A stretch of 64,000 nt of DNA from Odiellus spinosus. Taxonomy: Eukaryota > Arthropoda > Arachnida > Opiliones > Phalangiidae. Position numbers and translations under genes: made by a program. Where the stretch lies: positions 4,346,576 through 4,410,575 of the forward strand of contig OY987239.1 of NCBI GenBank assembly GCA_963920705.1. The letters run 5' to 3'. Below the pieces are notes generated by a model. The model was not told the origin of the DNA. It searched no databases and was given only the letters and a program-made list of their open reading frames with translations. This document shows, piece after piece, positions 27,162 through 49,389 of this stretch; within the stretch, counting starts at the first letter, position 1; the number at the start of each line of letters is the position of its first letter.

Positions 27162-27983
27162 AATTGGGAAACCAAAATATTTCCTCCCCGACGCCGATGT
27201 TAAGGTAACATAACCTAACCCTACCTAAAATAAAAGATGAAAATAAATGTAGAGTATTGGAAGAGTAGAAGAAACAACGGGCAATTGATTCACACTTCTC
27301 TATCTCCCATTTACGTAACGGAGTATAAGTATTTTCCCTTAACCTCAATGAATCAGAGAATGCAAAACAGTGTCCTGCGTTACTTATTATATGCGGCAGT
27401 ACACACCAAATGAAATGTTTATTTTTAAAGTAAATATGTAAAATACAAATTCTTGTAATATAAATTAAGATTTGAGCATAGGCTGTATTGTTTGATTATC
27501 TTTGATAATACACTGATTTGATAAAGACTAATGATTTAGTCTGTGATGGCAAGGAAGACAAGGAATTAAAACGACGAAGTAGGAAGTTCCTCTTGGACAA
27601 ATCAAGACTGAATGTTCCATTTACAACTCATTGTCGGTAGATGATTGGCAATTACTTCCGGTACAGTTTCGTCTGAAATTCTTGTTTTGACGTGCTAATA
27701 GAGAACCATTACTGATATTTTCATTATACGAGTAATCCCAGTCATTGGAAGAATCCAAGGATGGAGCTGGTCGAGAGGTTATTTTCCAAACCGGCTGACA
27801 AGACGTTAGTTCCCACTCCTATAATAAAAAAATATCTTGATATCAAAGTAGACTATTTTCCATACCGTTAGTATTTATACTTGTATAGCTCCTTTTATGT
27901 TTAAAATAACGAGGCCGTATGAAGAACTGTCGAACTTTCACTGACTGTAGGTGTCCATATGTCGAGTCCGAAAACACTCACTG
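27162..27983 (+). repeat. Repeat R, copy D (truncated by palindrome)
   Basis: Begins AAATTGGGAAACCAAAATAT and follows repeat R order until GTCCGAAAACACTCACT. It is cut off where mitochondrial sequence begins. The join shares GCTCGGG with the far outer edge of the palindrome, suggesting microhomology-mediated joining. Confidence 0.82.
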
Positions 27984-28194
27984 CTCGGGTTTGCACGTTA
28001 TCACTTCAATCTATAGAATTTTCATTTTAAATTTTCTTTTGAAAAAGTAAACATTAAAGTGTATTTAAATTAAATTTTATTATTACAATAAAATGTATAC
28101 TAATTTTTTTTAAGTATAAACATCTTATAATAAATTTACTTTAATAAAATATTTTTTTTAAACAATAATTATTCTTTAATATGAATATAATATT

Positions 28195-28263
28195 AATAAA
28201 GTAAGCTAAATTTATATTAAGCTTTTAGGCCCATACCCTAAAGATGAGGTTACCTCCTTTCTT
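28195..28263 (+). tRNA. trnM: Mitochondrial trnM (nuclear copy, left arm)
   Basis: Cloverleaf with CAT anticodon in loop CCCATAC, anticodon stem TTTAGG/CCTAAA, T-arm GAGG-TTA-CCTC, directly before nad2. A captured organellar tRNA, not expected to function in the nucleus. Confidence 0.85.
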
Positions 28264-28265
28264 AG

Positions 28266-29226
28266 ATGATTATAAAACCAGTTAATTTAACCTTTATTAT
28301 TATAATAATTCTAGGAAGAATAATTTCAATTAGTTCAAACTCTTGATTTCCAATCTGACTTGGGATAGAAATAAATATTATAGGTTTTATTCCCCTGATT
28401 ATCAATAAATCCAATATTTTATCTATTGAAGCTGCATTAAAATACTTTTTAGTCCAATCTGTTAGATCCTCTATTCTAATTCTTTTCTCAATTCAAAATA
28501 ATTTTTTTGTTGCTCCCATAGAATTAACTAATATATCACTTCTTACTAAATTAGGAGCAGCCCCATTTCATTTTTGGGTACCCTCTGTAGCAGAAAGAAT
28601 TTCATGAGTTTCTTTAAGTATACTATTAACTTGACAAAAAATTAGCTCCTATAATAATTCTTGTTACTAACATAAATTTCTCAAATATAATAATAGCTAG
28701 ATTAATTATGTCATTGATATTCGGGGCTACGGGAGGACTTAACCAAACTAGCACAAAAAAAATTTTAGCTTTTTCTTCTATTTCACATATAGGCTGAATT
28801 ATTGCTACCATCTTATTAAGATATAATTTGGTAATAATATATTTTTTAATCTACTCTATCAACCTAATCATAACCATTAATATAATAAAAAAATTTCAAG
28901 TCAATCATGTTAACAATTCATCTATTATAAAAAAAAAGAAAAATTATATTTTATATATAGTATTAAATATAGGGGGAATACCCCCTCTTTTAGGATTTTT
29001 TCCTAAACTTCTCACTTTAACTCTATTAATTAAAATCAATATAACATTATCTTTAATTATATTAGCAAGAGCTATTATTAATTTATTTTTTTATTTACGA
29101 CTCACATACCTGGCCCTTAGTCTAAATAATAATAATATGCATATGTATACAAATATAAATATAACCCCTAGTAAATTAAGAAATTTAATTATAGCAGCTG
29201 GGCCGTTAACTATTATTATATTCTAA
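28266..29226 (+). pseudogene. nad2: nad2 nuclear mitochondrial copy (left arm)
   Basis: NADH dehydrogenase subunit 2, readable in the invertebrate mitochondrial code from ATG 28266 to TAA 29226. TGA encodes Trp, and AGA falls where Ser is expected. A one-base insertion near 28641 is shared with the right arm and so predates the duplication. Downstream the frame is open with hydrophobic helices (PPLLGFFPKLL). About 320 codons, normal for insects. Not functional in the nucleus because of the code and frameshift. Confidence 0.92.
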
Positions 29227-29285
29227 AGCTTTAAGTTAAATCAAAACTATAAACCTTCAAAGTTTAAAATAAATTTTTAAGCTTT
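29226..29285 (+). tRNA. trnW: Mitochondrial trnW (nuclear copy)
   Basis: Anticodon TCA in loop CTTCAAAG, acceptor AAGCTTT pairing with TAAGCTT. Overlaps the nad2 stop by 1 nt and trnC by 8 nt, as in many insect mitochondrial genomes. Confidence 0.8.
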
Positions 29286-29338
29286 AGAAAACTCTCCTTA
29301 AAATTTGCAATTTTAGATTCTAATAAAATATAAAGCCT
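29278..29338 (-). tRNA. trnC: Mitochondrial trnC (nuclear copy)
   Basis: Anticodon GCA (AAATTGCAAATTTT on the minus strand), acceptor AGGCTTT/AAAGCTT. Canonical W-C-Y order. Confidence 0.8.
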
Positions 29339-29400
29339 AGTAAAAGGGTTCTAGTCCCATAAATAAATTTACAATTTATTACTTTTATCAGACATTTTAC
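29339..29400 (-). tRNA. trnY: Mitochondrial trnY (nuclear copy)
   Basis: Anticodon GTA in an AT-rich stem-loop (AATTGTAAATT), acceptor GTAAAAT/CTTTTAC. Immediately precedes cox1. Confidence 0.8.
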
Positions 29401-47436: not shown

Positions 47437-47494
47437 AATGTCTGATAAAAGTAATAAATTGTAAATTTATTTATGGGACTAGAACCCTTTTACT
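47433..47494 (+). tRNA. trnY: Mitochondrial trnY (right-arm copy)
   Basis: Mirror of 29339-29400, anticodon GTA. Confidence 0.8.
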
Positions 47495-47555
47495 AGGCTT
47501 TATATTTTATTAGAATCTAAAATTGCAAATTTTAAGGAGAGTTTTTTAAAGCTTA
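47495..47555 (+). tRNA. trnC: Mitochondrial trnC (right-arm copy)
   Basis: Mirror of 29278-29338, anticodon GCA, AGGCTTT/AAAGCTT acceptor. Confidence 0.8.
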
Positions 47556-47607
47556 AAAATTTATTTTAAACTTTGAAGGTTTATAGTTTTGATTTAACTT
47601 AAAGCTT
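47548..47607 (-). tRNA. trnW: Mitochondrial trnW (right-arm copy)
   Basis: Mirror of 29226-29285, anticodon TCA. Confidence 0.8.
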
Positions 47608-48569
47608 TAGAATATAATAATAGTTAACGGCCCAGCTGCTATAATTAAATTTCTTAATTTACTAGGGGTTATATTTATATTTGTATACATATGCATATTA
47701 TTATTATTTAGACTAAGGGCCAGGTATGTGAGTCGTAAATAAAAAAATAAATTAATAATAGCTCTTGCTAATATAATTAAAGATAATGTTGTTATATTGA
47801 TTTTAATTAATAGAGTTAAAGTGAGAAGTTTAGGGAAAAATCCTAAAAGAGGGGGTATTCCCCCTATATTTAATACTATATATAAAATATAATTTTTCTT
47901 TTTTTTTATAATAGATGAATTGTGAACATGATTGACTTGAAATTTTTTTATTATATTAATGGTTATGATTAGGTTGATAGAGTAGATTAAAAAATATATT
48001 ATTACCAAATTATATCTTAATAAGATGGTAGCAATAATTCAGCCTATATGTGAAATAGAAGAAAAAGCTAAAATTTTTTTTGTGCTAGTTTGGTTAAGTC
48101 CTCCCATAGCCCGAATATCAATGACATAATTAATCTAGCTATTATTATATTTGAGAAATTTATGTTAGTAACAAGAATTATTATAGGAGCTAATTTTTTG
48201 TCAAGTTAATAGTATACTTAAAGAAACTCATGAAATTCTTTCTGCTACAGAGGGTACCCAAAAATGAAATGGGGCTGCTCCTAATTTAGTAAGAAGTGAT
48301 ATGTTAGTTAATTCTATGGGAGCAACAAAAAAATTATTTTGAATTGAGAAAAGAATTAGAATAGAGGATCTAACAGATTGGACTAAAAAGTATTTTAATG
48401 CAGCTTCAATAGATAAAATATTGGATTTATTGATAATCAGGGGAATAAAACCTATAATATTTATTTCTATCCCAAGTCAGATTGGAAATCAAGAGTTTGA
48501 ACTAATTGAAATTATTCTTCCTAGAATTATTATAATAATAAAGGTTAAATTAACTGGTTTTATAATCAT
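47607..48569 (-). pseudogene. nad2: nad2 nuclear mitochondrial copy (right arm)
   Basis: Mirror of 28266-29226. It shares the one-base insertion and has an extra AAC codon near 47787 and a G lost near 48107, giving one more frameshift than the left arm. Confidence 0.91.
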
Positions 48570-48571
48570 CT

Positions 48572-48640
48572 AAGAAAGGAGGTAACCTCATCTTTAGGGT
48601 ATGGGCTTAAAAGCTTAATATAAATTTAGCTTACTTTATT
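48572..48640 (-). tRNA. trnM: Mitochondrial trnM (right-arm copy)
   Basis: Mirror of 28195-28263 with a G-to-A change in the anticodon stem; anticodon CAT kept. Confidence 0.8.
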
Positions 48641-49389
48641 AATATTATATTCATATTAAAGAATAATTATTGTTTAAAAAAATATTTTATTAAAGTAAAT
48701 TTATTATAAGATGTTTATACTTAAAAAAAAATTAGTATACATTTTATTGTAATAATAAAATTTAATTTAAATACACTTTAATGTTTACTTTTTCAAAAGA
48801 AAATTTAAAATGAAAATTCTATAGATTGAAGTGATAACGTGCAAACCCGAGCCTTAATTCTAAGTAGGCCATTCGACATCTTTAAATATTGTCAAGAGGC
48901 TCTCCCTCTAAATAATATATACGTTATCCATATTAATACTAATTTTTAATTACACATTATAACTATTTTTACCCTATTTTCTCTAATAAAAGTTAATTAA
49001 CATTTTTAAAATTTTAGGAGTAAAAAATATTAATTAATCTTATTGGGTTTTTAGAATTAGTATACATATCATTGTAATGATAAAATTTAATTTAAATAAA
49101 TTCTCTCATCTATCTTTTAATTAAATTTTTATAATTAAATTGAACTAATAAGCTAATTATATTTTTAATTAAAATTTAATTATGATGTAATTAAAAGTAT
49201 AATTTAAACTTATTGTAATTAATTTAAAGATTATCTTAATTATTAATAGATATGTTATCCATATAATTACTAATTTTTAATTACACATTATTACTTTTCT
49301 CCCCCTAACTTTCAATATCCAAAATTTTAAAAATTTTTGAAATAAAATTTTGGATAATGAAATAAGTTTATTCTATGAAATAATGAACA
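48641..49389. other. Mitochondrial A+T-rich control region (nuclear copy)
   Basis: Extremely AT-rich, located between trnM and rrnS as expected. Two blocks recur about 320 bp apart: TTAGTATACAT..ATTGTAATNATAAAATTTAA (48735 and 49055) and TTATCCATAT..ACTAATTTTTAATTACACATTA (48930 and 49255), a partial tandem duplication typical of insect control regions. I could not find trnI or trnQ here, which usually sit beside trnM. Confidence 0.75.

Follow-up and report, generated by a model that had tools for sequence, protein, structure and literature searches.

How does a nuclear genome come to hold two nearly identical, inverted copies of mitochondrial DNA (mtDNA) joined to genes of a virus-like transposon? 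This question is raised by a locus of Odiellus spinosus. The whole stretch of DNA analysed is 64 kb long and is designated as the window; all positions are counted within it, and the features are collected in Table 1.

Structure of the Locus

Self-comparison of the window revealed four colinear inverted blocks, between 27983-34601 and 36488-48852. The two arms differ by 31 substitutions in 5,689 aligned columns and by seven short indels, an overall divergence of 0.54%, and the length and identity of the blocks exclude a chance origin. A first-pass annotation had given the coordinates and sizes of the arms, a spacer of 1.9 kb, and the same mitochondrial segment and Polinton genes in both arms at about 99% identity; all of this agrees with the self-comparison, in which the blocks are 98.2-99.5% identical. 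The window contains no N letters.

The spacer (1,886 bp) has no second copy in the self-comparison within the window (E 1e-10). It is continuous with the left arm, from which Polinton-type ORFs extend through the spacer, and the right arm begins 1.9 kb further in than the left-arm end, an offset expected of a fold-back loop.

Table 1. Coordinates of the inverted duplication, its components and its borders
Feature	Position	Strand	Remarks
Dispersed repeat R, truncated copy	27156..27985	+	Joined to left arm; BLAST to other R copies
Left arm, mitochondrial part	27983..30465	+	Presumed control-region end, ND2 pseudogene, COX1 pseudogene
Left-arm COX1-Polinton joint	30466..31081	+	Poly-T and tRNA-like stretch; read from sequence
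Polinton gene, packaging-ATPase-like (presumed), stop-broken	31082..31709	+	Walker-A-like GVTGCGKS, then stop
Three Polinton-type ORFs	31655..33113	+	One with weak Adeno_PX match
Polinton integrase with chromodomain	33370..34425	+	Intact in left arm only
Left arm, inner end	34189..34601	+	Pairs with 39049-39262 and 36488-36689
Single-copy spacer	34602..36487	+	Remainder of minor-capsid-like ORF, small basic ORF, truncated major-capsid-like ORF (capsid labels presumed)
Right arm, inner end	36488..36688	-	Proposed fold-back junction at 36487/36488
Later insertion, right arm	36689..39048		2,360 bp; inverted ends CACTGTTAAAAA; 2-bp target duplication AA
Right arm, Polinton genes and joint	39049..42070	-
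Deletion in right arm	Left-arm 33265..34188		924 bp, integrase region; 12-nt filler at 39263-39274
Right arm, 3' part of COX1 pseudogene	42071..42285	-
Later insertion, right arm	42286..46562		4,277 bp; target duplication TAT
Right arm, mitochondrial part	46563..48852	-	98.2% to 27983-30253
mtDNA past duplicated part	48853..50683	+	Control-region-like stretch, 12S rRNA, stretch read as 5' 16S
Inverted block 1	27983-30253 / 46563-48852		98.2% identity including gaps
Inverted block 2	30251-33264 / 39275-42285		99.5%
Inverted block 3	34189-34402 / 39049-39262		99.1%
Inverted block 4	34400-34601 / 36488-36689		99.0%

Retrotransposon domains recognized with Pfam surround the duplication, at 2495-4943, 10529-15195 and 50684-55444, and the elements are presumably copia-like, BEL-like and gypsy-like, respectively. 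The gypsy-like element borders the right-side mtDNA. It has two LTR-like copies, starting at 50684 and at 55348, which align with each other over 98 columns, and judging from this alignment the 3' LTR seems shortened. Further imperfect palindromes lie in the window at 8114-9099 (86%), 19471-19617 (85%) and 20967-21387 (88%).

Mitochondrial DNA and Polinton Remains

COX1 was recognized in the left arm by PF00115 (E 8e-74 on 29800-30465, read with the invertebrate mitochondrial code), and its best match is an entry labelled Mesembrina meridiana, 80% identical. The stretch 28702-29223 matches PF00361 (E 5.5e-15) and occupies the place of ND2; a shorter ND2 piece, 28798-29223, has no Pfam match. 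The outer part of the left arm is taken to be control region. Reading of the sequence revealed three frame shifts common to both arms (two in COX1 and one in ND2) and two private ones, one per arm (29586, left; 28723, right). These frame shifts in COX1 and ND2 indicate that the mtDNA of the arms is a decayed nuclear copy.

On the right side, the mtDNA stretches about 1.8 kb beyond 48852, to about 50.68 kb, a part absent from the earlier annotation. Motifs of 12S rRNA were found there, outside the right arm, at 49531-49549, 50008-50023 and 50044-50060; their conservation, the 16S reading and the mitochondrial gene order are our assumptions. No rRNA was matched by Rfam in 27000-51000 at E ≤ 0.1, and the sole match there at this threshold, to a miRNA family inside a minisatellite, was taken as chance. 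As in a NUMT, the COX1 and ND2 copies are decayed and keep their mitochondrial order, control-region-like and 12S sequences accompany them, and nuclear retrotransposons lie around. The locus is unlike a NUMT in that the mtDNA was duplicated in inverted orientation after insertion.

The Polinton genes follow COX1 across a joint which differs between the arms by two substitutions and the length of the poly-T. A tRNA-like stretch lies in this joint at about 30565-30640 (right-arm counterpart about 41900-41975), with box-B-like GGTTCGAAACCC beside a homopolymer tract. It may, we assume, be a SINE or a retroposed tRNA; ARAGORN found no tRNA anywhere in the window.

The integrase ORF matches PF00665 (E 2.2e-12) and PF00385 (E 1.2e-5) and has 1546 protein homologs at E ≤ 0.001; on these matches, its identity as an integrase with a chromodomain is certain. 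The frame which we take to be a packaging ATPase has a stop at the identical codon in both arms, and 31167-31709 within it has no Pfam match. Among the three ORFs downstream, one matches Adeno_PX (PF05829, on 32092-32490) with 22.2 bits, below the cut-off of 25, and the remaining two have no Pfam match. ORFs of the spacer region are located at 34419-35162, 35311-35805 and 35893-36525, and those labelled minor-capsid-like and major-capsid-like are presumed to be such. The major-capsid-like ORF has 12 unnamed protein homologs, five of which reach past 36487. No packaging ATPase, protease or capsid gene was matched by Pfam above the cut-off. The viral_contigs scan with the capsid sequence matched six stretches, none of which was confirmed, the best PDB match of the capsid piece by sequence had E 0.62, and PHROGs returned for seven ORFs only weak matches, to proteins of unknown function.

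This run of an rve integrase with a chromodomain and ATPase-like, capsid-like and small basic ORFs resembles Polinton/Maverick elements. In contrast to these, neither a polymerase ORF nor terminal inverted repeats were seen: inspection of the ORF lists of this truncated element turned up no candidate for a protein-primed family B polymerase, and no Polinton terminal inverted repeats with a 6-bp target duplication were found, the inverted repeats detected in this stretch being either the duplication arms or segments of the insertions that came later. The Polinton material is filed as a fragment which has lost both ends, not as a complete element.

Breakpoints and Repeat R

At 36487 the sequence switches over to the opposite strand of the left-arm end at 34601. 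In the first-pass annotation the inner junction shares GCACGA; these six bases open the right arm and are simply the arm end and its complement. At 36494 the right arm has GCACGAAGAT where the left-arm complement has GCACGACGAT; this difference could be a retained primer mismatch, and a point mutation explains it equally well.

The outer left edge abuts a truncated copy of the dispersed repeat R, whose extents in the window are 6639-7994, 15491-18275, 27156-27985, 55858-58210 and 59826-62477, with an inverted copy at 5679-6186. The copies are about 80-97% alike, and each begins close to TTGGGAAACC and continues with a stretch rich in AACCT. The truncated copy matches others at 6971-7546, 16297-16883, 56186-56778 and 60164-60771. 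The first-pass annotation had R and the arm sharing GCTCGGG here. GCTCGGG is the left arm's own first seven bases, and the four other R copies compared continue from CTGCT with TTCACG, TGCACG, TGTACG or TGCATG, so that GCT alone is shared. An overlap of at least 3 bases arose in 7.0% of 200,000 random draws (R 55858-58210 against mtDNA 46563-50660), and the 3-bp overlap is therefore not significant (0.070). With this outer match of 3 bp at a chance of 0.070, the claim of microhomology at both breakpoints is not supported as it was put forward.

Nor is it supported that the outer left edge arose as a breakpoint in one event with the inner junction. Since the mtDNA on the right continues outward for about 1.8 kb more, 27983 probably marks the cut-off of the left copy, a secondary breakpoint and not a natural limit of the duplicated segment. 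Insertion of the whole block into R was also considered and rejected: the R copy at 55858 restarts from its own beginning behind the gypsy-like element.

Differences between the Arms

That later insertions had entered one arm was borne out: there are two large ones, both in the right arm, and the left arm provides a clean empty site for each. The smaller includes a minisatellite (36853-37539) of 16.4 copies of a 42-bp unit with one frame open. An HTH_10 match in this ORF was above the cut-off with no single passing stretch, and was discarded as a repeat artefact. The larger carries at about 45639-46564 a nested inverted-repeat unit with 366-bp arms and, to either side, a tandem pair of 145-bp copies, which by this architecture looks like a nested miniature element.

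Substitutions are spread unevenly, with 21 in 2,480 mtDNA columns against 10 in 3,209 elsewhere (Fisher p 0.0098), and six of the seven short indels are within mtDNA. Such unevenness would not be expected if the arms had decayed neutrally and at one rate throughout since a single duplication, and it counts against the origin favoured below. It may reflect gene conversion, selection, base composition or chance. Eight amino-acid differences were found in COX1 (29800-30465), and their polarity was judged against the best 120 of 8000 homologs: five are derived in the right arm, two in the left and one (29856) is ambiguous, and the left-derived call at 29891 is a plurality only, with P in 28 of the 120 homologs. 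Neither arm is uniformly nearer to functional COX1, and polishing of one arm by true mitochondrial reads is thus disfavoured.

The frame shifts and the ATPase stop common to both arms place the mtDNA-Polinton joint and its decay before the duplication. Shared and private changes taken together indicate that decay started before the duplication and continued afterwards. The arm-specific insertions and the spread of changes also argue against a purely technical palindrome, because that would be identical in both arms.

Origin of the Duplication

The structure probably arose in the nuclear genome as an inverted duplication, by fold-back or by fusion of sister chromatids, after the chromosome broke inside a dead Polinton. 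This mechanism had been proposed in the first-pass annotation; the single-copy spacer, the ORFs continuing into it and the mtDNA-bearing arms fit it, while its microhomology and its reading of the outer edge fall away. The accompanying view that the arms are not transposon termini holds, since mtDNA lies inside them.

The break would have occurred within the capsid gene at about 36487. The broken end may then have joined the opposite-strand sequence at 34601 or served as a primer on it, and copying would have proceeded outward across the Polinton genes, COX1, ND2 and the control region in the direction of 12S. Either breakage of the bridge or a deletion at some later time would next have removed the outer part of the left copy, and the left end was presumably joined to repeat R, with which it shares 3 bp. 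Transposons would have entered the right arm afterwards, where 924 bp of the integrase region were probably lost. Fold-back, sister-chromatid fusion with unequal ends and template switching at a fork give an identical picture, and the data do not separate them.

The strongest rival, although unlikely, is an assembly artefact in which two alleles of one mtDNA-Polinton locus were misjoined head to head, for example via a chimeric fold-back read, so that the arms are haplotypes and the insertions polymorphisms. A divergence of 0.54% falls within the range of ordinary heterozygosity, and the arm-specific insertions resemble polymorphic ones. However, homology ends sharply at 27983/48852 while mtDNA continues rightward, and since alleles should remain alignable, a further structural difference between them would be needed; the lack of any N in the window also speaks against a misjoin. 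A less probable alternative still is microhomology-mediated break-induced replication, in which a template switch at a single fork would have made the duplication with neither a broken chromosome nor a dicentric stage, the left edge being truncated by a deletion afterwards. It would yield a local inverted copy with a spacer and fits the 3-bp match at the R joint, but nothing favours it over fold-back.

Polintons carry terminal inverted repeats and probably use protein priming for their replication, and a palindrome could in principle be a product of their replication or transposition, as a snap-back genome or as very long terminal inverted repeats. Such an origin is highly improbable here: mtDNA accounts for 2.5 kb of the arms and also forms their ends, in place of element termini, and the element was broken at a codon common to both arms. 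The presence of the mtDNA-Polinton unit in both arms might also be accounted for by two independent insertions in opposite orientations. This is the least credible of the explanations, as the inner end of the right arm falls within a capsid-type gene and abuts the neighbouring gene region of the other copy, and no target duplication was seen in the junction flanks inspected.

Within the favoured origin by fold-back or sister-chromatid fusion, a bolder version is conceivable but unlikely: the locus may preserve a whole germline breakage-fusion-bridge cycle, with fold-back priming in a dead virus-like element, the primer mismatch visible at 36494 (GCACGAAGAT versus GCACGACGAT), bridge breakage at 27983 healed on R, and then arm-to-arm gene conversion keeping the Polinton part alike while the mtDNA decayed.

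Comparison with Known Inverted Duplications

Human fold-back duplications with a disomic spacer (Hermetz et al. 2014, PMC3907307) share with this locus inverted arms, a short single-copy spacer and a joint to foreign sequence. Inverted arms beside a single-copy spacer of such a size are characteristic of fold-back duplications. The 21 sequenced junctions described there have spacers of 766-70,466 bp (median 3,428), a range which includes the 1,886 bp found here; 13 of the 21 show inverted microhomology of 2-8 bp, and inverted duplications joined to translocations are among the products. Because one of those junctions contains a 70-bp mitochondrial insert, mtDNA at such breaks has a precedent. 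In contrast to the human cases, the mtDNA here forms part of the arms and was in place before they were duplicated. The duplication itself is an old one that has since decayed, its remaining arms measure only kilobases, and no inverted microhomology could be demonstrated. An inverted duplication of mtDNA and Polinton is undescribed in the titles and abstract openings of the literature matches listed. Most likely the locus is a new instance of a mechanism already known.

There is no sign of a function for the structure itself, and the locus leaves the knowledge of Polintons and of NUMTs unchanged. It would be a readable case in which a chromosome break amid transposon and mitochondrial debris built a large palindrome, with shared versus private decay as an internal clock. 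If the uneven decay is real, the locus would also offer a small natural test, from outside the mammals, of whether the arms of a palindrome undergo gene conversion.
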